Source: a virus. From it: a stretch of 34,536 nt of DNA. Position numbers and translations under genes: made by a program. Below, piece after piece: positions 10,150-34,536 of the stretch. Position 1 is the stretch's first letter. Every line of letters starts with the position of its first letter. The notes beneath the pieces were generated by a model, which was not told the DNA's origin, did not search any database, and saw only the letters and a program-made list of their open reading frames with translations. The stretch covers positions 1 to 34,536 of IMG/VR virus record IMGVR_UViG_3300028399_000022. One strand, given 5' to 3'.

Positions 10150-10154
10150 GGGGG

Positions 10155-10221: not shown

Positions 10222-10251
10222 GGGGCCGGCGGGGGTGCCCCCGCCGGCCCC
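10222..10251 (+). other. 14-bp perfect hairpin in the 10150-10263 gap
   Basis: Arms GGGGCCGGCGGGGG (10222-10235) and CCCCCGCCGGCCCC (10238-10251) pair perfectly around TG. A pyrimidine-rich stretch precedes it (10185-10216), and no T-run follows, so it does not look like an intrinsic terminator. It sits about 12 bases before the start of the next gene and could affect RNA processing or translation. The gap holds no gene that I can support. Confidence 0.6.
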
Positions 10252-10263
10252 GGGGAGGGACGG

Positions 10264-11338: not shown

Positions 11339-11340
11339 CG

Positions 11341-11766
11341 ATGGGAATCTCAGCCTTTGGGACGCTGTTGCAGATCGGGGATGGGGGGAGCCCGGAATCG
11401 TTCACGACGATCGCGGAGGTGTCCAGCATCAGTGGCCCTTCCCTCTCCCTGGACGCCGTGGAGATCACTCATCACAGCTCGACGGATGGATGGCGGGAGT
11501 TCGTGGGGGGGCTGCTGGATGGCGGGGAGGTGAGTTTCGACATCAACTTCCTACCCACCGACGCAACCCACAATGCCTCGACCGGCCTGCTGGCCGACAT
11601 GATGAACCGGACCCGGCGTAACTTCAAGCTGGTGTTCCCCGACTCGGGGAGCACCACCTGGTCGTTCACCGCGCTGGTCACCGCATTTGAGCCGGCCGAG
11701 CCAACGGACGACAAGCTGGCGGCCAGCGTGACGCTGAAACTGACCGGCAAGCCAACACTGACCTAA
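11341..11766 (+). CDS. Major tail tube protein
   Basis: A 141-residue protein preceded by AAGGAGG. It has the usual tail tube layout: an N-terminal GTLLQIGDGGSPESFTTIAEVSSISGPS, a strand with VEITHHSSTDGWREFVGGLLDGGEVSF, and the C-terminal FTALVTAFEPAEPTDDKLAASVTLKLTGKP. It polymerises as hexameric rings to form the non-contractile tail tube. The G/GT chaperone and tape-measure genes follow directly, as expected. Confidence 0.93.
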   Translation: MGISAFGTLLQIGDGGSPESFTTIAEVSSISGPSLSLDAVEITHHSSTDGWREFVGGLLDGGEVSFDINFLPTDATHNASTGLLADMMNRTRRNFKLVFPDSGSTTWSFTALVTAFEPAEPTDDKLAASVTLKLTGKPTLT

Positions 11767-11782
11767 TCCTAGGGAGGGGGGA

Positions 11783-12181
11783 ATGGCCCTGCTATCGCGG
11801 GAGCAGATCCTGGAGGCACCGGACCTGCCCTATGAGGATGTCGATGTGCCTGAGTGGGGCGGGACCGTGCGGGTGCGCGGCCTCACGGGTGCGGAGCGGG
11901 ATCAATTCGAGGCCGCTATCCTGGAGCGCCAGCGGGATGGCCGGCTCCGCGTGCGGATGGAGAATATCCGCGCCCGCCTGGTCGCCCTCGCCTGCGTGGA
12001 TGAGGAGGGCGAGAGGCTCTTCTCGGAGCAGGATGTGGCGGCGCTGGGGCGGAAATCGGCGGTGGCCCTCCAGCGGGTGTTCGAGGTCGCCCAGCGGCTG
12101 AGCGGCCTCGCCCCCCAGGACCTGGAGGAGCTGGCAAAAAACTCCGGGAGCGCCCGGAGAGGCGCTTCTACTTCCGCCTAG
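11783..12181 (+). CDS. Tail assembly chaperone G
   Basis: The zero-frame product, 132 residues (DLPYEDVDVPEWGGTVRVRGLTGAERDQFEAAI...), has the pattern of gpG-like tail chaperones, which coat the tape-measure protein before tube polymerisation. It terminates 39 bases after a canonical -1 slippery heptamer at 12136-12142. A fraction of ribosomes should shift and make the longer GT protein. SD-like AGGGAGGGGGGA precedes the ATG. Confidence 0.88.
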   Translation: MALLSREQILEAPDLPYEDVDVPEWGGTVRVRGLTGAERDQFEAAILERQRDGRLRVRMENIRARLVALACVDEEGERLFSEQDVAALGRKSAVALQRVFEVAQRLSGLAPQDLEELAKNSGSARRGASTSA

Positions 12182-12504
12182 CGCTGGCGCTGGGGATGCC
12201 CGTGGGGGAGCTCCTGGCGCGGATCAGCAGCCGGGAGCTCACGGAATGGATGGCCTACTGGCGGCTGGAGCCCTGGGGGGAGCCCCGGGCCGATCTGCGG
12301 GCGGCCATCATCGCAGCGACGGTGGCCAACACGGCCCGCGATCCCCGGCGCAAGCCGCGGCCATTCAAGCCCGCCGACTTCCTGCCCCGATTCGAGCGGC
12401 GGCGGCAGAGCTGGCAGGAGCAGCTCCGCTACATCGAATGGCTCAACGCCGCCCTGGGCGGCCGGGACCTCCGCCCCGGCCGCGATGATCCCCATCAACG
12501 ATGA
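11783..12504 (+). CDS. Tail assembly chaperone GT (by -1 frameshift)
   Basis: The first 120 codons are shared with G. After a -1 shift at A AAA AAC (12136-12142), reading continues from 12142 as LRERPERRFYFRLALALGMPVGELL...SRELTEWMAYWRLEPWGEP, giving about 240 residues. The T part has the usual helical pattern of GT proteins and no independent upstream ribosome site fits it better. The T frame stop overlaps the tape-measure start by 4 bases. In lambda-like tails the G:GT ratio is set by frameshift efficiency, and GT recruits the tube protein. Confidence 0.85.
12136..12166 (+). promoter_or_regulatory. Programmed -1 ribosomal frameshift signal
   Basis: The heptamer A AAA AAC lies exactly in the zero frame (GCA AAA AAC). 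Six bases downstream begins the stem AGCGCC (12149-12154) / GGCGCT (12161-12166) with a 6-base loop. A competing stem CTCCGGG / CCCGGAG starts at the heptamer itself. Heptamer plus short spacer plus stem is the standard -1 layout. Confidence 0.87.
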
Positions 12505-14993: not shown

Positions 14994-14996
14994 CGG

Positions 14997-16469
14997 ATGG
15001 CGGAGATCCTGCGGATCGTAATGGAGCGGCCGGAGGGAGGCTCGGAGACGATTGATCTCCTCTCCGGCGCGCTGCATCTGGAGATGGATGGCTGGGAGAT
15101 GCTGGAGCCGGAGATGCGCCGGCCTCGGCCATTCGGGGGACCACCCCTGCCCTATGAGCCGATCCGGGAGCGATTCATCCTGATAGGGGAGGGGGATCGG
15201 GAGCAGATCCGGGCCAGGATCCGGCAGATTGATCGGGCCCTGGAGCTCCTGCGACAGAGGCGCAGCGACAACTGGAATCAATGGCAGATATGGCTGGAGG
15301 CCTGGACCGAGGGGGAGGGCGATGATGGGCTCGATCCGCCGACGCCATTCCCCAGGCGGGCCTATCTGATTGATGGCAGCGCCGCCCGATTCCCTGCCCG
15401 CCAAGGAACCTTCTCACCGCTGCTCCATCGGCAGGCGGAGCGGATGATCCTGATCCTGGCCCGGATGCCATTTTGGGAGAGCTACGCCCAGCAGCAGGTC
15501 TACAATCCGAGCCAGGCGAATGCGCCATACAATCCCGGCCCATCGCTATGGGGCGGGATGCACAATCTGAGCACGATCCCCGGCACGGCGCCGGCCCGGA
15601 TCGAGCGGATCAGAATGATCAATGACGAATCCAATACCGGCAATCTCAACGAGCTATGGTGCGGGATTTGGACCGACCATACCCGAACGAGCCCCAACTT
15701 TGACCCAATCCTCGAACTGGAGAACGGGGCGCCGGGCACCGATACCGCATCCCAGGCGTCCTCGACGGCGAGTGGCGGCTACGCGATGCGCACCGACTTC
15801 GCCACCACGACATCGGAGGCGATGCGGGTGCAATTCCGGATCTCCCAGGCGGCCGGCGACACTGCGGCCTATTTCGGGCGCTACCTGCTCCTGCTCCGAG
15901 CCCGATGCAGCGACAGCGCCACGCAGGCCGTGGCCAGGATGCGCTACGGCGACCTCAATAGCAGCTCCCGAATCTACGGGAGCTACGTGGAGATCTCCGG
16001 CGTGGATTGGCGGCTCTACGAGATGGGGGAGATCGGGCTGCCCCCGGGCCGCATTCCGCTATCCAGCTATGATCCCTCCCAGGTGGCCATCGAGCTGCTC
16101 GCGGAGCGGACGGCCGGCTCCGGGGCGCTCGAATGGGATGCAATCCTCATGATGCCCAGCCAGCACATGATCCATCTCTGGGATCTCGATCTCCGCCCTA
16201 GGGGCGGAGGATATGCGCCGTCGGCGACCGTAGAGACGCTGCCCGATGGGAGCACCACGGCCCGGCACATCCGAGGACCGGCCGGATCCAGCGCCCCGGA
16301 CTACGCGACGGCCCTCGATGCCCGCCAGTGGTGGCTGCCCACGGAGCATTCGCTGAAATTGGTGTTCGCCGGCCAGCGGGCCGGCCTGCACGATCTCAAT
16401 GATGCTATTGATCTAGAATTTTTCTATCGCCATCGCTGGCGCTCCTACAAGGATCCCAATTATCCCTGA
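14997..16469 (+). CDS. Distal tail (Dit-like) protein
   Basis: A 490-residue protein right after the tape measure, where Dit is normally encoded. The N-terminal ~160 residues (GGSETIDLLSGALHLEMDGWEMLEPEM; REQIRARIRQIDRALELLRQRR; RAYLIDGSAAR) suggest the ring-forming domain. The remainder is beta-rich with a jelly-roll or carbohydrate-binding look (NLNELWCGIWTDH; VQFRISQAAGD; DWRLYEMGEIGLPPGRIPL), like Dit proteins with extra binding domains. The assignment rests on position and overall pattern. Confidence 0.65.
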   Translation: MAEILRIVMERPEGGSETIDLLSGALHLEMDGWEMLEPEMRRPRPFGGPPLPYEPIRERFILIGEGDREQIRARIRQIDRALELLRQRRSDNWNQWQIWLEAWTEGEGDDGLDPPTPFPRRAYLIDGSAARFPARQGTFSPLLHRQAERMILILARMPFWESYAQQQVYNPSQANAPYNPGPSLWGGMHNLSTIPGTAPARIERIRMINDESNTGNLNELWCGIWTDHTRTSPNFDPILELENGAPGTDTASQASSTASGGYAMRTDFATTTSEAMRVQFRISQAAGDTAAYFGRYLLLLRARCSDSATQAVARMRYGDLNSSSRIYGSYVEISGVDWRLYEMGEIGLPPGRIPLSSYDPSQVAIELLAERTAGSGALEWDAILMMPSQHMIHLWDLDLRPRGGGYAPSATVETLPDGSTTARHIRGPAGSSAPDYATALDARQWWLPTEHSLKLVFAGQRAGLHDLNDAIDLEFFYRHRWRSYKDPNYP

Positions 16470-16477
16470 TAGATGCG

Positions 16478-17530
16478 ATGATTGAGCCCATCTCCCTCCG
16501 CCTGCTGAATCGCCAGGGCAAATTCGCCCTGGATCTCTCCCCATATCTGGATCGCTGGGAGCGATCCATCCGCCTCCAGGGCGGATTCTGGATCGGCTCC
16601 CTCCAGATGGAGGGAGACACGACGCAGCTCAGCGATCTCCACTACTCCATCCTGGGCTGGGAGATCGAGGAACGGGCCGGCGGGGAGACGACCTGGGAGG
16701 GGATCATCTATGAGATGGATCTGGCGGCGGCCGGCGGCACCCGCCGCCTCTCCCTGGATTATCTGGCCAACGCCGTGAAGGCCGCCTACATAGATGAATC
16801 GAATGTGGCCGGAGAGACGGGCTGGGCAACGGATGATAGGAGCATCGGCCTCTATGGCAGGAAGGAGGAGATCATCACGCTGGATAATGCCTCGACGACG
16901 AATGCCGAGGCCCTCCGAGACGCCTACCTGCTCCAGAATGCCTGGCCGTGGCCGCGCCCGGTCCGGGTAGGCGGCCGGCAGGGGCCGGCCGCCCTGACCA
17001 TCCGGGCCTGCGGGTGGGTGTTTACGGCCAATTGGCGCTACACGACAACGGATGATGGGGGCACCGGCCCCATCTCCGATTGGATCCGCTCCATCGTGGC
17101 CACGGATTGCGAATTCATCTCGGAGGGGAAAATCGAGAGCAATTCACTCCAGATCAAACGGGCCCTCTCCGTGCCTACGCGGGCCTGGGATCTGATGCTC
17201 CAATTGGCCGAGCTGGGGGATGGATCGTGGCCCTGGAGGATCTGGGTAGATGTGGGCCGGCGCCTCTACTATCGCCGGCTGGACACCTCCCCCAGCTACC
17301 TCCTGCGGGAGGACGGGATCCACGATCTGGGCGGGGGGCATCAGGCCGTGTTGCCGTATCGTGCCCGGCCCGGCATACTACGCGACGCCGTGTACCCCGT
17401 GCGGAGGGGCGGCCCGGCCAATCCATTCCTGCAGGACGGCCGGGATCTGCTGATCGAGGAGGTTCAGGTGCGGGGGGGGGAGCTGATCCTCAAGCCGGCC
17501 GATTTCGATCCCCTGGAGGTGGCTCTATGA
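16478..17530 (+). CDS. Baseplate hub / tail-associated protein
   Basis: A 350-residue protein following the Dit-like gene. It opens with LRLLNRQGKFALDLSPYLDRWERSIRLQGGF and continues GWEIEERAGGETTWEGIIYEMDLA, resembling the first domain of gp27/Tal-like hubs (a surface definition followed by a beta barrel). It ends with GGELILKPADFDPLEVAL. No peptidoglycan hydrolase motif is visible. The first ATG (16473) meets a stop after two codons, so 16478 is used. The stop overlaps the fibre start by 4 bases. Confidence 0.6.
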   Translation: MIEPISLRLLNRQGKFALDLSPYLDRWERSIRLQGGFWIGSLQMEGDTTQLSDLHYSILGWEIEERAGGETTWEGIIYEMDLAAAGGTRRLSLDYLANAVKAAYIDESNVAGETGWATDDRSIGLYGRKEEIITLDNASTTNAEALRDAYLLQNAWPWPRPVRVGGRQGPAALTIRACGWVFTANWRYTTTDDGGTGPISDWIRSIVATDCEFISEGKIESNSLQIKRALSVPTRAWDLMLQLAELGDGSWPWRIWVDVGRRLYYRRLDTSPSYLLREDGIHDLGGGHQAVLPYRARPGILRDAVYPVRRGGPANPFLQDGRDLLIEEVQVRGGELILKPADFDPLEVAL

Positions 17531-18912
17531 GGCGGCGATCCCTGGGCGGGCGGAATGCGGAGCTAGATGCCATCCGGCTCCGTGTGCTGCTGAATCAGGT
17601 GGCCCAGCCTCAGACACCCGTGGACCACGGGAGCCTGCAGGGGCTGGGGGACGATGACCACACGCAATACGTACACGTTTCCGTGGCGCGTACTGTCTCC
17701 GCCCAACACACATTCAATCCCTCGGCGGCCGGCGCGCCATTCCTCCTGGGAGCCAATGCCCAGGGGCAATTGGTAGCCGGCTTCAATGCCGATCAATTGG
17801 ATGGCTACGAGGGAGCGGATTTCGCCCTGGCCGGGCACAACCACGATCACGGGGGATTGCAGGGGCTGGGGGACGACGATCACACGCAATACGTACACGT
17901 TTCCGTGGGGCGCACCATCTCTGCCCAGCACACATTCAATCCCTCGGCGGCCGGCGCGCCATTCCTCCTAGGAGCCAATGCCCAGGGGCAATTGGTGGCC
18001 GGATTCAACGCCGATCAATTGGATGGCTACGAGGGAGCGGATTTCGCCCTAGTCAGCCGCCAGATCATCGCCGGGGCGGGGCTGTCGGGGGGGGGCGATC
18101 TCTCGGCGGATCGCACGCTGGCGGTCCAGGTCGGCCCCTGGATGGGAATAGCCAATGATCGCGTGCAGTGGGAGCCGTCTCAGTTCCTGGCCGTCCCGGG
18201 TGGCTCCGGGAGGCCGGAGACCGCCTCGTCCCTGGCAGGCGCGATCTCCATCGTGCAGGATGGCGGGGTGGTTCTGGTGCCGCCATCCACATCGCCCCTC
18301 CAGGGGGGGGTGGCCTCGGGGATTGATAAATCATTCAGCATCATCGGGATCGGCGGGCCGCTGGCTTGCCGGGTGGATCGGCCCAGCATCGAAATCAATT
18401 CGGCCTCGGCGCGGCAGGTGGCTATCGTGGGCGTGGGATTCGAGGGGAGCGGGGCGAATACGCCGGCGCTAAGCCTGAAGAACACCGGCACCTACGGCCC
18501 CGAATGGCGGCTATGGAACTGCTACATCCATAGCACGGCCACCGGGGCAGGGGGGATTGAAATCACATTCCCCGGCACGGCGATCCTCTACGGATGCGAA
18601 ATCTACGCCGCCGACGGGAACGGGCTCGCGACGATAGGGAGCGGAGCGCCCTCGATGATCCATCTCTATGGCTGCAGGATCAGGGCCACCGGCAGCTCAT
18701 CCATCATCGGGATCGCGCTGGGCTACAACACAGGGGCGGAGATCAGGGTATTTGGGGGAAGCGTCGAGGGGGGGAGCTACTCGCTCCAGGCCGATGGGGG
18801 CACGATCAGCCTATCGGGCATCCCCTATTGCCCCCAGGGATTCCAGGAGCTCAATGGGGGGAATGTGAGGGGGCGCTATCTGGATTCCCTATGGAACGAG
18901 CAGGTGGCATAA
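17527..18912 (+). CDS. Tail fibre/spike with DDDHTQY repeats and beta-helix
   Basis: A 461-residue protein beginning at the ATG that overlaps the hub stop. An N-terminal helix is followed by two ~74-residue repeats, each starting GLGDDDHTQYVHVSV and including FNPSAAGAPFLLGANAQG and GFNADQLDGYEGADFAL, a known tail-fibre repeat style. A short GLSGGGDLSADRTLAV stretch leads to a C-terminal ~240-residue region with parallel beta-helix character (SFSIIGIGG; VAIVGVGFEG; WNCYIHSTATGAGGIEITF; LYGCEIYAADGNGLATI; LYGCRIRATGS), as in tail spikes. It likely binds host surface sugars. Last gene of the late operon. Confidence 0.82.
   Translation: MRRRSLGGRNAELDAIRLRVLLNQVAQPQTPVDHGSLQGLGDDDHTQYVHVSVARTVSAQHTFNPSAAGAPFLLGANAQGQLVAGFNADQLDGYEGADFALAGHNHDHGGLQGLGDDDHTQYVHVSVGRTISAQHTFNPSAAGAPFLLGANAQGQLVAGFNADQLDGYEGADFALVSRQIIAGAGLSGGGDLSADRTLAVQVGPWMGIANDRVQWEPSQFLAVPGGSGRPETASSLAGAISIVQDGGVVLVPPSTSPLQGGVASGIDKSFSIIGIGGPLACRVDRPSIEINSASARQVAIVGVGFEGSGANTPALSLKNTGTYGPEWRLWNCYIHSTATGAGGIEITFPGTAILYGCEIYAADGNGLATIGSGAPSMIHLYGCRIRATGSSSIIGIALGYNTGAEIRVFGGSVEGGSYSLQADGGTISLSGIPYCPQGFQELNGGNVRGRYLDSLWNEQVA
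17637..18051 (+). repeat. 222-bp in-frame tandem duplication in tail fibre
   Basis: Two copies start at 17637 and 17859 (offset 222 bp, 74 codons) and are nearly identical through the GADFAL motif. Differences are mostly synonymous. In-frame fibre duplications change reach and avidity without breaking folding. Confidence 0.9.
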
Positions 18913-20241: not shown

Positions 20242-20260
20242 CATTCCCTCCTTGCCCGGG

Positions 20261-20386
20261 GGGCGGGGGCGGCTTTCCCCTCCGAGGGGAGGCCGGGGGG
20301 GCAGCGGGCCGGTGCAGCCCCTCTGTCGGCCGGCCTCCCCTCGGAGAGGGGGGAGGGGCGGCGAGAGCAAGCGCCCCTCCCCGAGG
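20261..20386. repeat. Palindromic intergenic repeat, copy A
   Basis: A 126-bp GC-rich element with a 16-bp perfect inverted repeat: TCCGAGGGGAGGCCGG (20281-20296) and CCGGCCTCCCCTCGGA (20330-20345). Copy B at 20769-20892 differs by two substitutions and two single-base indels. It sits exactly between two genes of the leftward operon and would form a long hairpin in the mRNA. Confidence 0.9.
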
Positions 20387-20733: not shown

Positions 20734-20768
20734 TGCGCACTCTCCTTTCGCTAGCCCCCGGCCCTGGC

Positions 20769-20892
20769 GGGCGGGGGCGGCTTCCCCTCCGAGGGGAGGC
20801 CGGGGGGGCGGCGGGCCGGTGCGGCCCCTCTGTCGGCCGGCCTCCCCTCGGAGAGGGGGGAGGGGCGGCGAGAGCAGCGCCCCTCCCCGAGG
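20769..20892. repeat. Palindromic intergenic repeat, copy B
   Basis: A 124-bp near-copy of 20261-20386, with arms at 20788-20803 and 20837-20852. Its right edge abuts the end of the 20899 gene. On its left, the ~20 bases carrying the ribosome site of the next gene (CTCCTTTCGCTAGCCCCCGG on +) are also found at 19687-19706. Confidence 0.9.
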
Positions 20893-21128: not shown

Positions 21129-21419
21129 TTAGATGATTCGCTCCCACCATGCCTGGGCATTCAGCTCATCGGCCCAGGCGTAGAAATGCGTTGAGTTACC
21201 GTCATCGAACTCGTATGCCTCGACCCCCTCGAGGTGCACGGCGACAACAACATCACCGTAGAGGAGAGCCTCCTCGACATCATCGGTCAAGTAGACAACC
21301 CCTCCCTCCTCGAGGGGAGTCCGGGAGATCGTGAATTCGGTTATGGGGCTCCCCCTAAATCCCTCTGCCTGAATGCATTCCCAGGCGTTTTCTGTCGTTC
21401 CGTGGTATAGGGTTTTCAT
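21129..21419 (-). CDS. ADP-ribosyltransferase-fold-like protein
   Basis: A 96-residue protein, first gene after the promoter at 21499-21471. It begins MKTLYHGTTENAWECIQAEGF (His7 in the LYHGT position typical of ART/PARP/KptA-type folds) and continues GGVVYLTDDVEEALLYGDVVVAVHLEG (Tyr43 in VYLT, a second Tyr54 before GD), which matches the H-Y part of the H-Y-E signature. The third catalytic residue is not clear; Glu70, Glu85 or Glu93 are candidates. Phages use ARTs to modify host RNA polymerase or ribosomal proteins, and related folds also serve in toxins. Here that is inference. It could be an inactive ART-like domain. An upstream ATG is less well placed. Confidence 0.5.
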   Translation of the reverse strand: MKTLYHGTTENAWECIQAEGFRGSPITEFTISRTPLEEGGVVYLTDDVEEALLYGDVVVAVHLEGVEAYEFDDGNSTHFYAWADELNAQAWWERII

Positions 21420-21470
21420 ATCCCTCTCTCCGTCTCTCCGTCTGTGTTTTCCGTCCGCCTTACGCCCCAT

Positions 21471-21499
21471 ATTATACAGGATAATGCCATATTTGTCAA
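21471..21499 (-). promoter_or_regulatory. Consensus sigma-70 promoter (leftward operon 2)
   Basis: On the - strand: TTGACA (21499-21494), 17-base spacer, TATAAT (21476-21471). Both boxes are perfect consensus. Predicted start is near 21464, about 45 bases before the ART-like ATG. The surrounding DNA is AT-rich compared with the rest. Confidence 0.93.
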
Positions 21500-25545: not shown

Positions 25546-25602
25546 TAGCCCCGGGCTACCCCCCCCCTAGCCCCGGGCTACCCCCCCCCTAGCCCCGGGC
25601 TA
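25546..25602. repeat. Three tandem 22-bp palindromic units
   Basis: TAGCCCCGGGCTA occurs at 25546, 25568 and 25590, each pair separated by exactly nine C (period 22 bp). Each unit is a near-perfect palindrome centred on one C. The third overlaps the stop codon of the gene at 25600-26373. Possible roles are an iteron-like protein-binding array, a weak terminator cluster or a processing signal. Confidence 0.85.
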
Positions 25603-26373
25603 CCCCTCTTCGCGTAGCTGATCGGCCTGCTCCAGGAGGGAAGAGATGGGAATCTGCTCCCACGCCTCCTCATCCAGCTCCGCCTGGCGGAGCCAGCGGG
25701 CGTGGGCCTCCTGGAGCCCGGCGGGGAGGCGAGCGACCTGCTCCGGCGTTAGGAGGGGGAGCACCTCACGGACATAGAATCTATAGCGCCCGTGAGAATC
25801 CTGCTTCCAGCGCAGGATCCCCTCGTCCCGGAGCACTTCCATCCATCCCCTCTGCCAGTAGCGGCGGCCATCCCGCCGCCGCTCCCGCCCGATGAGCTGC
25901 TGGCGAGAGCAGCCGAGGGTGGCCGCCAATGTGGCGATGCTGGGGGTGGCCGGGCCTCCGCCCCAGCCATAGGAGCGGAGGATCAGCCAGAGCAGCCAGG
26001 GCCCCCGCCCTAGGAGAGGGAGCCAGAACCTGATAGCATAGTGGGGAGTAGCGACCCAGCCCCGGCGGGCCGGGTCGAATTCAACGAGTTCGACGTCAAT
26101 CTCCGTCCGCGGGTCGCCCACCGCCTCCTGGGCGAATCCGCTCCCCCCGACCGGCTCCTCACGCACGATGATCTCGGAGAAGCCGGCCTCCTGGGCGGCC
26201 TGGCGAATGCGTAGATTCCGTTCTGCCAGCAATTCGAAGCTCAGGGGATCGCCCGGGTAGGCCAGGAGGATCAGATGATCCTCCTCGGCCTGTAGGCGGT
26301 TGTGGAGGTGGACGGCCAGATGAGGGGCGCTGTATCTGATTATCTGTAGGAAATGCTGGAGCCGCCTATCCAC
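25600..26373 (-). CDS. Candidate replication initiator: DnaA-domain-I-like plus winged helix
   Basis: 257 residues from a GTG at 26373 (GGAGGGG site). The N-terminal ~80 residues (LQAEEDHLILLAYPGDPLSFELLAERNLRIRQAAQEAGFSEIIVRE) resemble the pattern of DnaA domain I (a strand, 'P...WL..R....I..A'). The C-terminal half is a helix-turn-helix typical of phage/plasmid replication proteins: WLLWLILRSYGWGGGPATPSIATLAATLGCSRQQLIGR, then WMEVLRDEGILRWKQDSHGRYRFYV. DnaA-like domain I recruits helicase, so an origin-loading role would fit. No origin is proven. The tandem palindromes directly downstream are a candidate binding site. Confidence 0.5.
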   Translation of the reverse strand: MDRRLQHFLQIIRYSAPHLAVHLHNRLQAEEDHLILLAYPGDPLSFELLAERNLRIRQAAQEAGFSEIIVREEPVGGSGFAQEAVGDPRTEIDVELVEFDPARRGWVATPHYAIRFWLPLLGRGPWLLWLILRSYGWGGGPATPSIATLAATLGCSRQQLIGRERRRDGRRYWQRGWMEVLRDEGILRWKQDSHGRYRFYVREVLPLLTPEQVARLPAGLQEAHARWLRQAELDEEAWEQIPISSLLEQADQLREEG

Positions 26374-26770
26374 AGCTGCCCCTCCATGCCCGGACAGCCC
26401 GCTTCCTGAATTTCTCCAGGGCCGCCAGGGTGATCCATCCTGGCGTAACGACCCTGTAGACCTTCCAGAGGATCTCGGGGCCCTGGGCGATGTAGTAGCC
26501 CAGGTCGCCCCACTCCTCTGCTGCTGCCGCCCAGTCGCGGCGGGCGACGGCGGCGAGGAATTCCAGGAATTCTCCCCGCTTCCATCCGATCTGGGGGGAG
26601 CCGGGGCGGGAGCGATCCCGCTGCTCCTGGATGATGAGCTTCCGCAGGGCCACCAGCGGCCCTGCGGGCTGATCGCCCCGGGAGCGGGCGATCAGATAGG
26701 CGCAGGCCCGCAGGGCGGCGCGGTCGTCGCCGTGGATGATGGCATTGTCTATTGCTCTGATGTGCCTCAT
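26366..26770 (-). CDS. MazG-like nucleotide pyrophosphohydrolase
   Basis: 134 residues from the ATG at 26770, which overlaps the integrase stop by 4 bases. The C-terminal half has the all-alpha NTP-PPase pattern AAAEEWGDLGYYI (EE..D metal ligands) and LAALEKFRKRAVR (KF.KR end). The N-terminal half is helical (NAIIHGDDRAALRACAYLIARSRGD). MazG-type enzymes hydrolyse (d)NTPs or alarmones to monophosphate and pyrophosphate. Phage copies may clean nucleotide pools or influence host stress signalling. The spacing between motifs is shorter than in canonical MazG, so substrate is open. Confidence 0.55.
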   Translation of the reverse strand: MRHIRAIDNAIIHGDDRAALRACAYLIARSRGDQPAGPLVALRKLIIQEQRDRSRPGSPQIGWKRGEFLEFLAAVARRDWAAAAEEWGDLGYYIAQGPEILWKVYRVVTPGWITLAALEKFRKRAVRAWRGSCG

Positions 26771-27795
26771 TTGCGTCTCTCTCCTTCGGTGGCCTCGGCC
26801 GCCGAGCGCCCGTAGGTCTCCAGCTGGTCCCGCACCTTGGCGATCTCGGTGTGGGGGGCGTAGATGCGCCGTGTCGTCGAGATGTCGGCGTGGCCTAGGT
26901 AGGTCTGCAGCACGTCCAGGTCCATCCCCTCGTGGAGCAGTTGCTGGGCCCGGTAGTGGCGGAAGTCGTGGGGCGAGGTGCCCCGGTAGAGCCCCAGGGC
27001 TTTGGCCGCGTCCTTGACGATGCGCCACAGGGTCCAGCGGCTCAGAGGCTTTCCCGCACCGCGACCGTGGGAGATGAAGAGGGCCGGGTGGTTGTCCTCC
27101 CGCTCCCGCAGGTAGTCGGCGATGGCCCGCTGGGCCTCCGGCGTCAGGAGGATGATGCGCTCCTTGCCCCCTTTGCCCTCGATGCGCACTTCCCGCTTGC
27201 GCCCGTCCAGGACCATCTCCCGGGTGAGGGAGGCGACCTCGCTGACCCGGGCTGCCGATGCATAGAGGGTATGCACCACCGCCCTCGCCCGCAGGATGAT
27301 CAGCCGCCTCTGCCGGGCCCGCCATCCGTCGGGCTCCGGCAGGGGCAGGCTGTCGTAGTAGGTGACGATGCGGGGCAGCCCTGGGTCGGGATCGTGAGCG
27401 GTGGCTCGGGGGCCACGGAAGCGGCCTCGGGCGGCCCGGAGGCGGTTCTGAGCCTTGCCCAGGTGGAAGCCGGGGGCCAGACGGTCGTGGGCGTCCAGCC
27501 AGACCAGGAAGCGTTGGACACCGGCCAGGTAGGTCTGGATGGTGGCAGGGCTGTAGCGGCGCTTCTGGACCATCCACTCGTGGAAGGCGACCAAGAGATC
27601 GTCGCGGAAGCCGATGACGGGGATGGGGTGGGGGAGGGGGGGCGGGAGGTAGTCGGTCTCGGCGATGAACTCGGCCAGCCGCTTGAGGGCGTGGCCGTAC
27701 CCCTCCCGCGTCCTAGGGCTGGCCTCGGCCAGCCCTAGGAGAAACTCCTCCCGCCCCTCTATCGGCGGCGGCCGTACCACCGCCGATCTGCCCAT
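26767..27795 (-). CDS. int: Tyrosine recombinase / integrase
   Basis: 342 residues when started at the ATG 27795 (MGRSAVV); a longer frame exists but its extra N-terminus looks unnatural. The N-terminal SAM-like core-binding domain (~15-105) and the catalytic domain are complete: R183 (AARVSE), K211 (GKGGKER), H276-R279 (HDFRH), H302 (LGHADISTTRRIY) and nucleophile Y312. It would catalyse attP x attB integration or resolve dimers. Codon use differs from neighbours: GATC occurs only about 4 times in 1 kb versus very densely in structural genes, which suggests a recent acquisition. No attP core could be recognised. Confidence 0.92.
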   Translation of the reverse strand: MGRSAVVRPPPIEGREEFLLGLAEASPRTREGYGHALKRLAEFIAETDYLPPPLPHPIPVIGFRDDLLVAFHEWMVQKRRYSPATIQTYLAGVQRFLVWLDAHDRLAPGFHLGKAQNRLRAARGRFRGPRATAHDPDPGLPRIVTYYDSLPLPEPDGWRARQRRLIILRARAVVHTLYASAARVSEVASLTREMVLDGRKREVRIEGKGGKERIILLTPEAQRAIADYLREREDNHPALFISHGRGAGKPLSRWTLWRIVKDAAKALGLYRGTSPHDFRHYRAQQLLHEGMDLDVLQTYLGHADISTTRRIYAPHTEIAKVRDQLETYGRSAAEATEGERRK

Positions 27796-27896
27796 CCCTC
27801 GAGGCCCAGGGCCTCTATGATCCGCCAGTAGATGCTCCATTTCAGCTGGAGCATCCTCCGTGTCGCCCACCACCACCAGACCCGGATCCTATTCAT
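27759..27896 (-). CDS. Possible tiny Trp-rich basic protein, 45 aa
   Basis: The ATG at 27896 begins MNRIRVWWWWATRRMLQLKWSIYWRIIEALGLEGWADRRWYGRRR (given in pieces: MNRIRVWWWWATRR at the N-terminus, ALGLEGWADRRWYGRRR at the C-terminus). It overlaps the integrase start by 37 bases. The Arg/Trp composition suggests membrane or nucleic-acid contact. The ribosome site is weak. The region 27897-28049 upstream holds no gene with an acceptable start. A sensible-looking frame there (CAWWNDDFGQCAVAAIAGAL...) ends at the same ATG but lacks a start codon. Confidence 0.3.
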   Translation of the reverse strand: MNRIRVWWWWATRRMLQLKWSIYWRIIEALGLEGWADRRWYGRRR

Positions 27897-28049: not shown

Positions 28050-28724
28050 TCAGAACAGGTCCGCCAACTGCCGCTCCTCCCAAGTCGCGGCGAGGATAGT
28101 GCGGCCGTTGAACACGTAGTAGTGGGCGGCCGGCCGCCCGTAGAGCCGGCCGCTATAGCCCGTCCTGAAGACCTGTCCCTTGGGGATCAGGGCGACCATC
28201 TGCCGCCCGCTCCCCATCCGGCCGGCCATCCCTTGGGCGATCCGACCCTCGACTATGACCCTGCCGGGGAACGGCAGGAATCCGGCGGGGTAGATGTTGT
28301 CGGGGTGGATGTCCTTCTCTTCCGCATAGCGGAGGGCAAGGGCGTAGGAGGGGAACTGCCGATACCAGGACCTTCGGGGCGTGCCTACCTCGTAGGTTCC
28401 ATCCCGGTCGCCGGTGTGTTCGTTCGACCCCCGGTAGCCGATGGGGGTCTGAAGAACAACGATCGCCTGTTCGTCGCTGGTCGCCGCCCGGACGGCAACC
28501 AACTTGGGGCGGCCCGACCGGGTGGTGGTGAGCCGGGCAGCGAGGATCCGATCGCCCGGCTCTGCGCCGGCGACCGGAAGCACGCCCAGCTCCCGGCCCC
28601 GGCCGGCCTCGCCGACGATGATGGCCGGGATCTCGATGTTGGCGCCCTTGAGGCGGAATGAGGACACCCGGGCGCCATCCTCGACCTCGCCGGCCGAAAC
28701 TGTGAAGATGCGGTAGCTATCCAT
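28050..28724 (-). CDS. Unknown protein co-encoded with ParB, 224 aa
   Basis: The start ATG at 28724 has AGGAGG 6 bases upstream and overlaps the ParB-like gene end by 8 bases. The N-terminal half is beta-rich (DSYRIFTVSAGEVEDGARVSSFRLKGANIEIPAIIVGE; GDRILAARLTTTRSGRPKLVAVRA). The C-terminal half has helices and a Tyr-rich segment (SYALALRYAEEKDI; TGYSGRLYGRPAAHYYVFNGRTILAATWEE). I do not recognise the family. Its tight coupling to the ParB-like gene suggests a partner or regulator, replacing the usual ParA neighbour. Confidence 0.65.
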   Translation of the reverse strand: MDSYRIFTVSAGEVEDGARVSSFRLKGANIEIPAIIVGEAGRGRELGVLPVAGAEPGDRILAARLTTTRSGRPKLVAVRAATSDEQAIVVLQTPIGYRGSNEHTGDRDGTYEVGTPRRSWYRQFPSYALALRYAEEKDIHPDNIYPAGFLPFPGRVIVEGRIAQGMAGRMGSGRQMVALIPKGQVFRTGYSGRLYGRPAAHYYVFNGRTILAATWEERQLADLF

Positions 28725-30195
28725 CCCCTTCCTCCTGCGGTAGATATGACAACAACCAACTCTCAATGATCCGCCTGGCCCGCTCTGGATCCGCTTTTGG
28801 GATCCAGATGCTCTTTTGCACGATCGCTTTGGCGATCAGATCGGGCCAGGCGGGATCCACGCCTGCCTCCATTGAATCCAGGGCCGCCCGGGCCGCTTTG
28901 GTATCCAGAGCGGCCAGGATCGCCAAATTGCCCTCCCTGGCGCGGATGGCGTCGGCGATCCGCCGGGTGGCCTCATCCTGGAGCCGGCGGATCTCCCGGC
29001 GAATCTTCCGCTTTTTGCCGGCCTCCTCGGCCTCTCCGGTGCATAGGCAGCCGCCCCGGCGCCGGCACACCCACATCGCGCCGGGGAACTCCTCCGGCCC
29101 CAGCACCATCGAACCCATCCAGAACCGGGGAGCCAGATGGAGATGTTCGCATTGGGAGGCGATGGCCTTCTCCAGGCCTCCCGTTTGATCTGGGTAGAAG
29201 AAACGGAAAGAGGCCTGATACTTGATCTCTTCGGCCTCCCCATAGGGGATGGCCGGGAATCCCAATGCCTGGGAGGCCAGGCCGGTTTGAGAATCCTTCC
29301 AGATCTCCTCTTTCTCCTCCCAGCAGCGCAGATCGCTGCATAGATTGCCCTGCCGGCTGAGCCGGCGAGGGCAATCCCGGCAGACGGGGGAGTGGATCTC
29401 CCCCTCCCCCTCAATGGGCTCATCCCAGGGAAAGGGGGCCTGATCGAGCGGCTTAGCCACTTGGTTCCGGATCCGGGAGGCGATCTCCCGGATCTGATCG
29501 GAGGGGAGGCCCTCATCCAGGGCCGCCTCCAACCTGGCCATTAGCCAGGCCGGTGCCCGCTTCCGGGCCTCCTCAGGGAGGCCATAGACAGGCTGGGCGG
29601 CCTGGGCCTGCCGCTCCGACAGGCGGCCGGCGGCCAGCCGCTCCCGGATTGGCTCCGGGAGGCCTAGAAGCCTCAGCTTGTTGGCCACTGTTGCCCGGGC
29701 CAGGCCCAGGCGCTCGGCTACTTGGGCCTGGGACCAGCCGAAATCCTCCATCATCTTTTTAATGGCCTGGGCCTCCTCCAGCGGCGAGAGATCCCGCCGC
29801 TGGGCATTCTCGGCCCAGCCGGCGATGGCCACCTCCTCATCGGAGAGGAGGAGCACATCCACCGGCATGGCCCAGTATTCCTCCCGCCCCTCCATATGGA
29901 GGCGGAGGAAGGCGGCGAGCCTGGAGTGGCCGTAGGCGAGCTGCACGACGGCCCCTCGCTCGAGTTGCCGATGGGCCCAAGAGGGAACGACAACCCCATC
30001 CGGGGGGATCAGGCGCTCCCCCCGGCGATCCACTAGGCGGCCGGCGGGCACCTGGAGGAGCCCTTTGGTCTCCGGGCGGGAGACCGCCCGGGCCAGGATG
30101 TCGGCCGCCAAGGCAGCGATGTGGTCCTCATCCTCGCCCTGGCGGGCCTGCCAGGGCGAGGGGACGATCTGATCCAGAGGGACGAAGACGATCAC
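28717..30195 (-). CDS. ParB-like CTPase/DNA-binding protein with Cys-rich C-terminus
   Basis: 492 residues from a GTG at 30195 (GGAGGAGG upstream, GTGA overlap with the RHH gene). The N-terminal ParB/sulfiredoxin-like domain (FVPLDQIVPSPWQAR) keeps the CTP-binding motifs GHSRLAA (89-95) and ENAQRRDLSPLEEA (129-142). A KorB-type HTH follows (DFGWSQAQVAERLGLARATVANKLRLL, ~151-177). The C-terminal half is unusual, with a Cys cluster (VCRDCPRRLSRQGNLCSDLRCWEE) and CRRRGGCLC, probably zinc sites. ParB-CTP clamps load at palindromic parS sites. Three parS-like palindromes are present here. No ParA ATPase is visible, so its role may be regulation, replication or condensation rather than classical partition. 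Confidence 0.85.
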   Translation of the reverse strand: MIVFVPLDQIVPSPWQARQGEDEDHIAALAADILARAVSRPETKGLLQVPAGRLVDRRGERLIPPDGVVVPSWAHRQLERGAVVQLAYGHSRLAAFLRLHMEGREEYWAMPVDVLLLSDEEVAIAGWAENAQRRDLSPLEEAQAIKKMMEDFGWSQAQVAERLGLARATVANKLRLLGLPEPIRERLAAGRLSERQAQAAQPVYGLPEEARKRAPAWLMARLEAALDEGLPSDQIREIASRIRNQVAKPLDQAPFPWDEPIEGEGEIHSPVCRDCPRRLSRQGNLCSDLRCWEEKEEIWKDSQTGLASQALGFPAIPYGEAEEIKYQASFRFFYPDQTGGLEKAIASQCEHLHLAPRFWMGSMVLGPEEFPGAMWVCRRRGGCLCTGEAEEAGKKRKIRREIRRLQDEATRRIADAIRAREGNLAILAALDTKAARAALDSMEAGVDPAWPDLIAKAIVQKSIWIPKADPERARRIIESWLLSYLPQEEGDG

Positions 30196-30500
30196 GGTTC
30201 CTCCTCCCCCGCCCCTGTTTGCGCGCAAACAGGGGCGGCCTCGGAGAACTCAACGCGCTCGTCGCAATCCGGGCAGTGATAGGCCTCCCCATCGGGGGCC
30301 AAATCCATGATCCCCAGGGGGAGGCCACAATGGGGGCAGCGATCCGGCTCGGGTTCGGCGGCCGGCGCCTGCCGCCGCCGGCGGGCCTCATCCTCAACGA
30401 GGCGCCGGACTATCGCCGAGACAGGCCGATCCTCCTCCCGCGCCCACCGGCGCAGGAGGGCGGCTTGCTCCTCATGAATGCTGATGCTGATCCTAATCAT
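30192..30500 (-). CDS. Ribbon-helix-helix plus zinc-ribbon regulator, paralogue-like
   Basis: 102 residues from the ATG at 30500 (GGAGGTGG site). The N-terminal MIRISISIHEEQAALLRRWAREEDRPVSAIVRRLVEDEARRRR is a CopG-type RHH. A zinc ribbon follows with CPHCGLPLG and YHCPDCDERVEF. It shares its layout with the gene at 18979-19329. It is directly coupled to the ParB-like gene (GTGA). Its last codons contain the perfect palindrome at 30209-30238, so the protein or ParB may bind within its own gene. Confidence 0.7.
   Translation of the reverse strand: MIRISISIHEEQAALLRRWAREEDRPVSAIVRRLVEDEARRRRQAPAAEPEPDRCPHCGLPLGIMDLAPDGEAYHCPDCDERVEFSEAAPVCAQTGAGEEEP
30209..30238. promoter_or_regulatory. parS-like palindrome, copy 3 (30 bp perfect)
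   Basis: The core TGTTTGCGCGCAAACA (30216-30231) is extended by CCGCCCC / GGGGCGG to a 30-bp perfect palindrome. It lies in the 3' end of the RHH gene, ~15 bases before the ParB start. The core shares TGTTT...AAACA with bacterial parS (TGTTTCACGTGAAACA, known consensus). Confidence 0.68.
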
Positions 30501-30613: not shown

Positions 30614-30988
30614 TCATCGGGCCTGGCGGGCGGCATCGCGGACATCCTGCAAATCGAGGATCTCCGCGAGGACGAAGCGGGAGCCCTCCCGGCGGAGCCG
30701 GACGATGGGCGGGAAATAGCCCATCCGCCCGTGGAGCTCCGCCAGGAGCACGGCGGCTCCCGGCGCATAGCCGGGCGGGTTGATGATGATAGGGGAAGCC
30801 TGCCATTTAGTGGGGGAAAAGCCGATGGAGGAGACGATCAGCCGGACCTGAGGGGGAATGGACCTGTTGAGATCAAGCTGGAATGGAACATCTACCACCT
30901 TGATCTCGCGTTCGAGGGCAGCGGAGATTTGCTCTCGCTGCTCCTCGGTCATTGGATGGCCAAAATTGAGCAGGGTTGTTGGATCCAT
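30614..30988 (-). CDS. Csx15-like protein, candidate anti-CRISPR ring nuclease
   Basis: 124 residues from the ATG at 30988 (AAGGAG, 6-base spacer), first gene after the promoter 31057-31029. The sequence has the pattern I recall for the CRISPR-associated Csx15 family: LLNFGHPMTEEQREQISAAL near the start, VDVPFQLDLNR, a central SSIGFSPTKWQASPIIINPPGYAPGAAVLLAELHGRMGYFPPIVRL, and the end LAEILDLQDVRDAARQAR. Length fits. Csx15 occurs in type III CRISPR loci and, as I recall, has been linked to cyclic-oligoadenylate breakdown. A phage copy could switch off type III signalling like AcrIII-1. The family call is from memory, and the anti-CRISPR role is inference. Confidence 0.55.
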   Translation of the reverse strand: MDPTTLLNFGHPMTEEQREQISAALEREIKVVDVPFQLDLNRSIPPQVRLIVSSIGFSPTKWQASPIIINPPGYAPGAAVLLAELHGRMGYFPPIVRLRREGSRFVLAEILDLQDVRDAARQAR

Positions 30989-31028
30989 TTCTTTCTCCTT
31001 CCTCTGTCGCTGGGATAAGGATGTTCCC

Positions 31029-31057
31029 ATTTTATCATACTCCGTAATACCTGTCAA
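31029..31057 (-). promoter_or_regulatory. Consensus sigma-70 promoter (leftward operon 1)
   Basis: On the - strand: TTGACA (31057-31052), 17 bases, TAAAAT (31034-31029). Predicted start is near 31022, about 35 bases before the Csx15-like ATG. Its -35 box lies 22 bases from the -35 box of the divergent late promoter, so one regulator could control both. Confidence 0.9.
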
Positions 31058-31079: not shown

Positions 31080-31108
31080 TTGACATCCAGGGAAAACTCT
31101 GCTATACT
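31080..31108 (+). promoter_or_regulatory. Consensus sigma-70 promoter (late operon)
   Basis: TTGACA (31080-31085), 17 bases, TATACT (31103-31108). Predicted start is near 31115. It would drive the lysis and structural genes from 31287 through the contig ends to 18912. I see no other strong promoter on this strand over that range. Confidence 0.88.
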
Positions 31109-31114
31109 GGAGCT

Positions 31115-31263
31115 GCGCCGAGAGCCCGGAGCTCTGAGCAGGCCGCTGTGATGGGATCATCCGGGCTGTCGGCGCATCTCTATTCTCAATCGGATAGGAT
31201 CGAGCCTGATCAGGGCTCCGGGCTGCCGCCATCTGCCCCACCCCGCGCGGGGCGGATGGCGGC
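31115..31263 (+). ncRNA. Structured 5' leader of the late operon
   Basis: Three stems follow the promoter: GCGCCGAGAGCCCGGA (31115-31130) with TCCGGGCTGTCGGCGC (31160-31175), 16 bp with one G-G mismatch; GAGCC/GGCTC (31202-31218); and GCCGCCATCTGCCCC (31225-31239) with GGGGCGGATGGCGGC (31249-31263), 15 bp with one T-G pair. The first stem begins at the predicted +1. No T-run follows the last. A 41-codon frame (31151-31276) overlaps and its stop touches the holin ribosome site. Candidate antitermination, stability or riboregulatory leader. Confidence 0.5.
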
Positions 31264-31286
31264 TTGCTATTCCTAGGAGGGAGCCA

Positions 31287-31472
31287 ATGGATGGGAAGCC
31301 AATCTGGCGGTCGAAGACATTCTGGTTCAATGTGATCGCGTTGGTCGTCTTCGTGGCCACGCGATTCGGCTACGCCGATTTCACGCCCGATCCCGATCTG
31401 ATGGCCGCGGCCGCGGCCATCCTCAATATCGTGCTCCGGCTGGTCACCCGGGAGCCCGTCCGCCTGCGCTAG
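31287..31472 (+). CDS. Holin-like small membrane protein
   Basis: 61 residues, preceded by AGGAGG with a 6-base spacer. Layout: a short N-terminus with WRSKTFWFN, one membrane helix (VIALVVFVATRFGYA), then a second hydrophobic stretch (LMAAAAAILNIVLRLVT) and a basic end (REPVRLR). This fits small two-helix holins encoded just before lysins. A holin would make the membrane hole that lets the lytic enzyme reach the wall. It could instead be a lysis regulator. Confidence 0.65.
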   Translation: MDGKPIWRSKTFWFNVIALVVFVATRFGYADFTPDPDLMAAAAAILNIVLRLVTREPVRLR

Positions 31473-32652: not shown

Positions 32653-33279
32653 ATGATGCGAGGGGAGATCGGATTTGGAGGGAGCCTCTCGGCCGAGCTG
32701 ATTCCTGGGGCGGAGCCGGCCCCGCTCCTCTGGCGGCTCCGCAATTGGATGCGGCCGGCATTCCTGTGGGGGTGGCTCTGCTATCGGCTGGCCAGTGCCT
32801 TCACGGCGATCACGGGGATCCCCACGATCGTCGCCCGGCTGGAGGCCACGCTGATCCGGGCCGATGGCCGCCGGGTGCACTATGGCGTGTTGGGCTACCG
32901 CGTGGTGACTGACGCCGGGGTTGCTTTCCTGGTGGACGATTGGGACAACGACGCGACCGACATCACAACGATGAACTACCACGCCTGTGGCACCGATTCC
33001 ACGGCCGAGGCGGCGACCGACACGGCCCTTGGGGCCGAGGCGACGACGGTGACTGACCGGGTCGCCGGCACCAAGAGCCAGCCGGCCGCGAATCAGCTCC
33101 AGACCGTGGGCACGCAGTCGTTCACGGGCACGGCGGCGATCACGGAGCATGGCCTATTCTCCTCGATCACGGAGGGGGCCGGGACGCTCTGGGATCGCTC
33201 TGTTTTCGCGGCCATCAATGTGGGAAGCGGCGATTCCATCCAATGGACATACACTTGCACGATCAATAGCGGGGGCTAA
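32653..33279 (+). CDS. Virion surface/tail accessory protein
   Basis: 208 residues (ATG 32653 or 32656 after GGAGGGA). The N-terminal ~50 residues contain a hydrophobic segment (FLWGWLCYRLASAFTAITG). The rest is beta-rich and Thr/Ala-rich, ending SFTGTAAITEHGLFSS...TLWDRSVFAAINVGSGDSIQWTYTCTINSGG, a C-terminal pattern repeatedly seen in phage structural proteins of this size. The gene lies between the lysin and the repeat fibre, so a surface location is likely. Exact role unknown. Confidence 0.6.
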   Translation: MMRGEIGFGGSLSAELIPGAEPAPLLWRLRNWMRPAFLWGWLCYRLASAFTAITGIPTIVARLEATLIRADGRRVHYGVLGYRVVTDAGVAFLVDDWDNDATDITTMNYHACGTDSTAEAATDTALGAEATTVTDRVAGTKSQPAANQLQTVGTQSFTGTAAITEHGLFSSITEGAGTLWDRSVFAAINVGSGDSIQWTYTCTINSGG

Positions 33280-33288: not shown

Positions 33289-34536
33289 ATGCCATCATTC
33301 GTGGCCGATGCCGATACCTATCTGGCCCGAGGCAACGACGGACTGGCGGCCGTTTACAATTACGGAGCGGATGAGGAGATCCTGCTTGCCGATCCCTCAT
33401 TCGCCTATGCCAGGATCGGCTTATTGCATTTCGATCTCTCCGGCATTCCGCCTGGGGCATCGGTGCAGTCGGCCACGCTCTATCTGACACTATCCCGTGA
33501 TGCACCCACATCTCTGAACCCGATCATCTCCGTCCATCGTGTCCTAAGTGCCAATTGGACCTGGATTGAAGGGACGAAATCGGGATCGCTGGCCGGGAGC
33601 GGGGAGCCGTGCTGGAACTACCGAGCCTACAGCTCGACCCGATGGGCCGGGGATGCCGGCGGAGATGGGGGGGCAGATGCGGGGTGCTCGGTCGCCGGCA
33701 CCGATTATAGCGCCACAGCGGCCGGCACCTCGGAGGGGCTCCAGGGCAAAGTGGCCGGCTACACGACGGCGATCTCTCTGGATCCAAATGAAGTCGAGCT
33801 GCTGATCCAGAATAACTATGGGCTGCTCATCAAGCAGGGAGTTATCGCCGTCTTATACATTGCATCGAGGCAGAACACATCCTACTCCGGCCCCACCCTC
33901 GAGATCATCTATGGCCAGCAATTCAGCCAGGCCGTCGCCGGGGCTGCATCCCCGGCGGGGGCGTTGGCGAGGCAAGCGGGGATCGGGCTGGCGGGGGCGA
34001 TCTCCCCGGCGGGAGCCCTGCTCAGGCGGGCGGCCCGGGCGCTGGCTGGAGCCATCAGCCCCTCCGGCCTGGCCTCGGGGATGCGGCTCATCGCGCAGGC
34101 GCTGGCTGGGGCCATTGGGCCGGCGGGGGCGCTGGCGAGGCGGGCGAGGATCGGGCTGGCGGGGGCGATCTCCCCGGCGGGAGCCCTGCTCAGGCAGGCG
34201 GCCCGGGCACTGGCAGGGGCTATTGGGCCGGCGGGGGCGCTGGCGAGGCGGGCGGGGATTGGGCTGGCGGGGGCGATCTCCCCGGCGGGAGCCCTGCTCA
34301 TGCGGGCGGCCCGGGCGCTGGCTGGAGCCATCAGCCCCTCCGGCCTGGCCTCGGGGATGCGGCTCATCGCGCAGGCGCTGGCTGGGGCCATTGGGCCGGC
34401 GGGGGCGCTGGCGAGGCGGGCGGGGATCGGGCTGGCGGGGGCGATCTCCCCGGCGGGAGCCCTGCTCAGGCAGGCAGCCCGGGCATTGGCCGGGGCCATC
34501 GGGCCGGCGGGGGCGCTGGCGAGGCGGGCGGGGATC
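33289..34536 (+). CDS. Tail-fibre-like protein, N-terminal part: DNRLRE domain plus 18-aa repeats
   Basis: Open from the ATG at 33289 (an in-frame stop is just upstream) to the last base: 416 codons without a stop. Residues ~1-213 match a DNRLRE-type beta-sandwich, common in surface and carbohydrate-binding proteins: FVADADTYLARGN, ARIGLLHFDLSGIPPGASVQSATLYLTLS, NWTWIEGTKSG, SGPTLEIIYG. Then 18-residue repeats begin (VAGAASPAGALARQA, LAGAISPAGALLRRA), including two 20-residue variants (LAGAISPSGLASGMRLI). The 3' part is at 2-739. Likely a virion fibre in which the repeats form a spacer rod or amphipathic segment between binding domains. Confidence 0.82.
   Translation, partial: MPSFVADADTYLARGNDGLAAVYNYGADEEILLADPSFAYARIGLLHFDLSGIPPGASVQSATLYLTLSRDAPTSLNPIISVHRVLSANWTWIEGTKSGSLAGSGEPCWNYRAYSSTRWAGDAGGDGGADAGCSVAGTDYSATAAGTSEGLQGKVAGYTTAISLDPNEVELLIQNNYGLLIKQGVIAVLYIASRQNTSYSGPTLEIIYGQQFSQAVAGAASPAGALARQAGIGLAGAISPAGALLRRAARALAGAISPSGLASGMRLIAQALAGAIGPAGALARRARIGLAGAISPAGALLRQAARALAGAIGPAGALARRAGIGLAGAISPAGALLMRAARALAGAISPSGLASGMRLIAQALAGAIGPAGALARRAGIGLAGAISPAGALLRQAARALAGAIGPAGALARRAGI
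33934..34536 (+). repeat. 54-bp coding tandem repeat, right part
   Basis: Eleven units: the first degenerate, eight of 54 bp and two variants of 60 bp (LAGAISPSGLASGMRLI type). The array is truncated by the end of the window. The last 16 bases match bases 1-16 with one mismatch (C at 34529, G at 9). Some S-type units here are almost identical to those at 110-330. Confidence 0.92.

Follow-up and report, generated by a model that had tools for sequence, protein, structure and literature searches.

A Csx15-family gene carried by an uncultivated phage as a candidate anti-CRISPR against type III signalling

The csx15 locus and its phage

The window analyzed here, i.e., the whole stretch of 34,536 nucleotides of the IMG/VR virus record IMGVR_UViG_3300028399_000022, harbors the genes of a siphophage: terminase, portal, head protease, HK97-type capsid, connector, major tail protein and tape measure. 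Its leftward arm contains ParB, integrase and FtsK-like genes, and due to the presence of a tyrosine integrase the phage is probably temperate. The csx15 gene is the first gene of the leftward run and is followed by a weakly ribbon-helix-helix-like gene, whose product may possibly be a regulator, and then by ParB, while an endolysin-like gene and a gene termed h4 are located to its right (Table 1).

The first-pass annotation had described a 124-aa product containing the blocks LLNFGHPMTEEQREQI, NPPGYAPGAAVLLAELHGRMGYFPP and LDLQDVRDAARQ; its open reading frame is present as claimed, on the minus strand and intact. The mechanical list of open reading frames additionally contains a longer version of 147 aa, starting from a TTG at position 31057. 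Since this TTG falls within the -35 box of the promoter, the start of the 124-aa version is preferred. The GC content of csx15 (0.62) lies within the range of the other genes of the phage (mean 0.67, sd 0.04).

Table 1. Coordinates of csx15, its expression signals and the neighboring leftward genes.
Feature	Position	Strand	Description
csx15	30614..30988	(-)	124 aa, intact, ATG at 30988; NF040560 match, invariant residues, AlphaFold2 pLDDT 96.3
Sigma-70-like extended -10 promoter of csx15	31029..31057	(-)	TTGACA-17-TAAAAT, 11/12, TG before -10; pattern only
Ribosome-binding site AAGGAG	30995..31000	(-)	6 nt before csx15 ATG; read from sequence
Divergent near-consensus promoter	31080..31108	(+)	TTGACA-17-TATACT, 11/12, TG before -10; faces lysis-side genes
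Small RHH-like and zinc-ribbon-like protein	30192..30500	(-)	Pfam RHH_1 E 8e-4, DZR_2 E 6e-4, both below cutoff
ParB-like gene, downstream of csx15	28717..30195	(-)	PHROG ParB-like partition protein, E 1e-13
Tyrosine integrase	26767..27876	(-)	Pfam Phage_integrase E 9e-33; PHROG integrase E 9e-32

The near-consensus promoter that had been proposed ahead of csx15 proved to be real as a sequence pattern, matching 11 of 12 positions together with the TG of an extended -10 element, and the leader read from the DNA is approximately 30 nt long. In the whole window three promoter-like sites reach at least 11/12, namely the csx15 promoter, the divergent site at 31080 and a 12/12 site at 21499. Within the 3-kb region around csx15, two promoter-like sites are observed vs. 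0.4 expected from shuffles. A scan of csx15 and its promoter against Rfam yielded nothing above the gathering scores.

Right after the divergent promoter, a highly structured untranslated stretch is found (31109-31290, plus strand; folding energy z-score of -5.1 vs. shuffles), which comprises a stem with 21-nt arms (31110-31180) and a GC hairpin with 15-nt arms (31225-31263). It matches no Rfam family above gathering and is possibly a structured leader or a small RNA. The perfect 12/12 sigma-70-like promoter (21471-21499, minus strand) lies directly before the leftward gene 21470..21129, which has a low GC content (0.56) and is another gene without assigned function. Two genes downstream of csx15, a family-less protein is encoded (28053-28724, minus strand), relatives of which (37% identity) were found in one other IMG/VR contig only. 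This is the viral contig L222, in which two such relatives (4886-5461 and 5593-6180) are present together with a Csx15-family gene; judged from these two cases only, it is possibly a partner gene of csx15. Further repeats within the window are three tandem 22-nt units at 25546-25611 (TAGCCCCGGGCTACCCCCCCCC) and a 116-nt near-copy repeat with a distance of 507 nt (20254-20369 and 20761-20876).

Both ends of the window (1-740 and 33900-34536) belong to one shared tandem-repeat array with units of ~54/108 nt, which also reads as a repetitive protein. In the related phage G461, a relative (57%) of h4 (32653-33279) is located just before HNH and terminase. The shared end array and this gene order are as expected of a circular genome cut within the array, which is what they suggest for the window.

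In 45 of 45 tested phage records with related terminases csx15 is absent, using a search which did find csx15 in three of the phages described below (G001-G003). Therefore, csx15 is considered an accessory gene. A ParB-based search for sister phages found none. A partner swapped against csx15 at the same position of the nearest phage relatives was unreadable; in the leftward module, they have only a distant ParB in common with the window.

DNA relatives of the structural genes are present in Chloroflexota genomes, and the host of the phage is probably a member of this phylum. A search with the window region 800-18900 in 400 Chloroflexota genomes revealed related prophage DNA of 65-71% identity; for the spacer search, 20 matching loci were examined, none of them with a CRISPR array. 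Of six genomes with related prophage DNA, just one has a Cas10 domain scoring above the cutoff, which counts against an anti-CRISPR function.

Family assignment, conserved residues and predicted structure

The family match to Csx15, which the first-pass annotation had proposed, is borne out by a curated profile as well as by similarity to solved Csx15 structures. The profile comparison proposed there was performed, and in a scan of NCBIfam the sole match of the window protein is NF040560.1 (CAS_Csx15), an equivalog-level model (E=4.1e-39, 133.7 bits with a cutoff of 35, model positions 2-125 of 125). Pfam gave nothing meaningful, its sole match at E<=10 being an unrelated model with E 0.15, and PHROG gave no match for the product. 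The AcrIII-1 models of Pfam and NCBIfam are unmatched, and Csx15 belongs to the CARF superfamily (PMC13148439), which agrees with the earlier claim of a family other than AcrIII-1. Three PDB sequences match the window protein: the C-terminal domain of CbCash (PDB 9ylu; best match, E 5e-22), CliCsx15 and PfCsx15. Judged from its sequence, the window csx15 is a genuine member of this family, carried by a phage.

An alignment of 85 sequences was built from the window protein and 84 further Csx15 proteins, obtained by scans of IMG/VR and 84,980 species genomes. Fourteen residues never vary in it (H11, P12, Q47, Q63, A83, H86, G87, R88, G90, F92, E109, R117, R121, R124). The residues of the LAELHGRM/GYFPP blocks were partly selected by the scan patterns, which do not cover H11, Q47, Q63, E109 and the three arginines. 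All 14 are kept in the window protein, so that residues conserved in active members, which the first-pass annotation had named as a check, are in place. Here, the histidine of motif I (H11 in PfCsx15, H13 in CliCsx15) corresponds to the invariant H11, and the second histidine (Pf H82, Cli H90) to H86 within ELHGRMG. The C-terminal arginines R116, R120 and R123 of PfCsx15 correspond to the invariant R117, R121 and R124, an equivalence assigned by the spacing given in PMC13148439.

A conserved serine two residues before the motif-I histidine (S9 in PfCsx15) has also been named (PMC13148439). The window protein lacks an equivalent serine and has G10 there. Since this column is variable among the 85 rows (serine in 44, alanine in 25, glycine in 12, threonine in three), the serine is not family-defining.

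The AlphaFold2 model of the window protein has a pLDDT of 96.3 and displays five strands with alternating helices. Its beta4-beta5 hairpin, the element that contacts the next Csx15 dimer (PMC13148439), comprises 13 residues (R97 to E109) in comparison to 16-22 in the other 84 sequences. PfCsx15 aligns to the window protein without a gap at this hairpin (HMMER alignment) and stacks on cyclic tetra-adenylate (cA4); therefore, the short hairpin is compatible with multimers driven by cA4. In a Foldseek search of the model against the PDB no match reached significance, and the matches listed did not include Csx15; the CARF/SAVED proteins Cap5, CalpL, Cad1, Cap4 and Cam1 were matched only weakly.

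In comparison to CliCsx15 (PDB 9teu) and PfCsx15 (PDB 9tet), the window protein is alike in its full-length profile match, both histidines, the C-terminal arginines and the domain size. It differs in being phage-encoded, in place of an origin from CRISPR loci or from orphan genes of cells, as well as by G10, a glycine present in 12 of the 85 rows, and by the shorter hairpin. The Csx15-like domain of CbCash, on the contrary, is part of a 297-residue protein and has glutamine at both catalytic histidine positions of the alignment, while the window protein keeps both histidines.

Csx15 in phages, further viral contigs and cellular genomes

In a search of 28,114 phage genomes AcrIII-1, Csx20 and Csx16 have been reported, and Csx15 has not (PMC12409355). 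Furthermore, it has been stated that Csx15 occurs in no phage genome and hence may have no anti-CRISPR utility (PMC13148439). Likewise, tblastn with three different Csx15 queries against 50,697 isolate-phage records and with two queries against 72,556 plasmids revealed no Csx15. Escherichia phage BUCT618 was rejected as a candidate (E 0.1, 29% identity over half of the protein, gene position among the head-tail genes). The papers on Csx15 that were read mention no phage copy; preprints and most subscription papers were outside the reach of the literature search and an earlier report is possible.

In IMG/VR, however, intact Csx15 is present in four further uncultivated, terminase-bearing phage contigs: G001 (135 kb, also with baseplate J), G002 (100 kb, also with tape measure and head protease), G003 (54 kb) and G004 (46 kb). 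The terminase of G003 is apparently interrupted by an intein-like insertion (L171 1-1839, minus strand). In a maximum-likelihood tree, based on a short alignment and with the window copy on a long branch, the five phage copies are located in five places; given the well-supported branches, the phage label has to change at least four times. As read from this tree, csx15 is a gene captured repeatedly by unrelated phages.

Three viral fragments of 17-20 kb (L217, L218 and L220) carry phage-type replication genes; since no terminase was found in them, they were left out of the confirmed Csx15 phages. Two of these, L217 and L220, share the order helicase, csx15, methylase, primase. Their csx15 products are 69% identical in comparison to 86-93% for the neighboring proteins, with a dN of 0.19 and a dS of 1.37 for csx15 and a dN of 0.06-0.09 for the neighbors (simple NG86 estimates with dS near saturation). 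Accordingly, csx15 is old in that lineage and constrained overall (dN/dS ~0.14), although it evolves faster than its neighbors.

Some viral copies are degenerate. In L220 (5995-6366) H86 is changed to tyrosine and R117 as well as the last arginine are lost, while the copy of L217 (5995-6372) is intact; the pair represents a natural loss-of-function comparison. In L222, L223 and L224 key residues are likewise lost. On L223 (5529-5900), a terminase-bearing viral contig, the divergent csx15 ends early and the C-terminal motif (NLQTLRD) starts the next open reading frame in another frame, which suggests a frameshift. On the viral contig L224 (986-1834), a degenerate csx15 runs into an IS66-type TnpA-like reading frame. 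These four degenerate copies count against an anti-CRISPR function. That certain lineages have lost the gene and others have kept it fits a counter-defence gene of conditional use.

In cells, Cas10 or RAMP genes were found in the sequenced flank of at least 46 of 80 csx15 loci; this is a minimum, given that numerous flanks are short and that the seeds were derived from a single type III-B locus. Of 50 tested genomes with related csx15, 45 contain a Cas10 palm domain that scores above the cutoff. Several of the remaining loci, inspected by eye, adjoin CARF-like genes (L010, L024, L050) or a type I cas set (L023). This usual cellular home supports an uptake of csx15 by phages from CRISPR loci, and it is from there that we infer the direction of the transfer. 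At L034, L043 and L077, cellular Csx15 proteins of 559-587 aa are encoded, which are apparently fused to another domain.

A likely counter-defence gene acting on cA4

For the key residues of Csx15, binding or cleavage of cA4 was demonstrated in 2026 (PMC13148439). CliCsx15 is a slow, metal-independent and cA4-specific ring nuclease, for which H13 and H90 are needed, and PfCsx15 sequesters cA4 via H11. Crystal structures and models revealed a head-to-tail arrangement of Csx15 dimers, in which conserved arginines surround the ligand. In E. coli, CliCsx15 relieved the plasmid immunity of a type III-A/Csx1 system. PfCsx15 has a weak inhibitory effect on cA3 and cA6 effectors. To the authors it seems doubtful whether sponging can prevail over the high quantities of cA4 that are produced upon infection (PMC13148439).

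This narrows two proposals of the first-pass annotation. It had proposed an assay of cA4/cA6 cleavage, and the characterized Csx15 proteins are specific for cA4 as opposed to cA6 (PMC13148439). Its analogy to AcrIII-1 is supported as a conjecture and is refined to a sponge or slow ring nuclease in place of a fast enzyme of the AcrIII-1 type (PMC13148439).

Taken together, the phage csx15 is likely an accessory counter-defence gene from a cellular CRISPR locus, most likely taken up there and kept for this purpose, whose product would act as a cA4 sponge or slow ring nuclease blunting type III signalling. Here, the window protein would form a CARF-type dimer and these dimers would stack head to tail. 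The cA4 would be trapped in a shared pocket formed by H11 of one dimer and H86, R117, R121 and R124 of the next one, and possibly be hydrolyzed slowly. As free cA4 drops, cA4-activated effectors would be switched off during phage replication. In this scheme cA4 specificity, stacking, sponging and slow cleavage are taken from the published work on other Csx15 members, and by this analogy binding or cleavage of cA4 by the window copy, its anti-CRISPR role and its benefit to the phage may be assumed. As judged from its sequence, the window protein may be either an enzyme or solely a sponge.

The anti-CRISPR function is suggested by the profile match, the closest PDB sequences, i.e., Csx15 proteins and a Csx15-like domain, and the retained invariant residues. 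It is further in line with the cA4 biochemistry of CliCsx15 and PfCsx15, which needs the equivalent histidines, and with the relief of type III immunity by CliCsx15. Moreover, promoter and ribosome-binding site, the phage structural genes, four more phages with intact Csx15, the purifying selection in L217/L220, the cellular linkage to type III systems and the accessory status argue for it. Counted against it are the slow activity of the characterized members and the doubt of the authors about sponging, the absence from isolate phages, the long branch and short hairpin of the window copy, the Foldseek result and the fact that no host or matching type III spacer was found in the search of Chloroflexota genomes.

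A more far-reaching version has about even chances. According to this, Csx15 would be an unrecognized phage anti-CRISPR family with at least four separate captures out of cellular CRISPR loci, a filament-forming cA4 sponge or slow ring nuclease used in infection as well as for the well-being of lysogens, and the window copy with its pared-down hairpin would be phage-adapted.

The main rival to a use during phage replication differs in the moment of use, not in the chemistry. Csx15 might mainly damp a low-level type III signalling caused by prophage transcripts and thereby, in hosts with a matching spacer, spare lysogens a fitness cost. In favor of this are the integrase of the phage, the incomplete tolerance of type III-A systems towards prophages with its fitness cost to lysogens (PMC5754349), and a csx15 promoter that looks like an ordinary sigma-70 site, potentially used in the lysogenic state. 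A slow sponge would also suit low amounts of cA4, and a dampening role has been proposed for cellular Csx15 (PMC13148439). For the other Csx15 phages, however, two of which are on contigs of 100-135 kb, there is no evidence here of being temperate, and we regard this explanation as possible, if rather unlikely.

That csx15 is a captured host gene in decay, a passenger of no current benefit to this phage, would fit the degenerate copies of the four viral contigs, the slow activity of known Csx15 and the long branch. This is improbable given an intact reading frame with all invariant residues, a strong promoter and a ribosome-binding site, independent captures by unrelated phages and the dN/dS of the L217/L220 pair. 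A change of function, in which the fold is kept for another ligand or partner (e.g., a CBASS-type signalling nucleotide) or for regulation of phage genes, is in our view quite improbable: the retained equivalents of all cA4-binding or -cleaving residues speak against it, and so does PfCsx15, which is gapless at the hairpin and yet stacks on cA4. Nevertheless, the window copy combines the long branch with the shortest hairpin of the 85 sequences and with G10 where many Csx15 have serine, CARF/SAVED relatives bind several cyclic nucleotides, and PfCsx15 acts weakly on cA3 and cA6 effectors (PMC13148439). Finally, an assembly chimera or wrongly joined host DNA can hardly be the explanation, since phage genes flank csx15 on both sides (ParB and integrase left, endolysin-like gene and h4 right), its GC content is within the phage's range and it occurs in unrelated phage contigs as well, even if the contig is metagenomic and has no second close copy.

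The anti-CRISPR function proposed for the phage csx15 resembles that of known viral proteins. With AcrIII-1, the viral Crn2 family, it would share the expected role, viral removal of cA4. AcrIII-1 is an efficient enzyme relying on the 2'-hydroxyl of the substrate, whereas Csx15 is slow, employs water and is able to function purely by sequestering cA4 (PMC13148439). AcrIII-2/Crn5, a viral SAVED ring nuclease (PMC12751052), likewise represents a viral take-over of a cellular cA4-binding domain; both stack head to tail around cA4 and have a catalytic histidine in the same place (PMC13148439). In contrast, AcrIII-2/Crn5 is a SAVED domain from CalpL and Csx15 a single-domain protein of CARF type. 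Csx16 and Csx20 are also CARF-like ring-nuclease families found in type III loci and a few phages (PMC12409355), yet they are separate families with faster enzymes, Csx15 being the one reported absent from phages.

The only functional study of Csx15 argues from this absence that an anti-CRISPR use may be lacking (PMC13148439). This premise rests on a phage genome database largely without uncultivated phages, and uncultivated phages carry Csx15 repeatedly and with intact active-site residues. Therefore, the ability of a slow cA4 sponge to act against type III immunity becomes directly testable with proteins evolved in phages. Csx15 is probably an overlooked means by which phages switch off CRISPR. 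If this is true, it would join AcrIII-1 and AcrIII-2 as a further way in which viruses employ a component of CRISPR against CRISPR itself.
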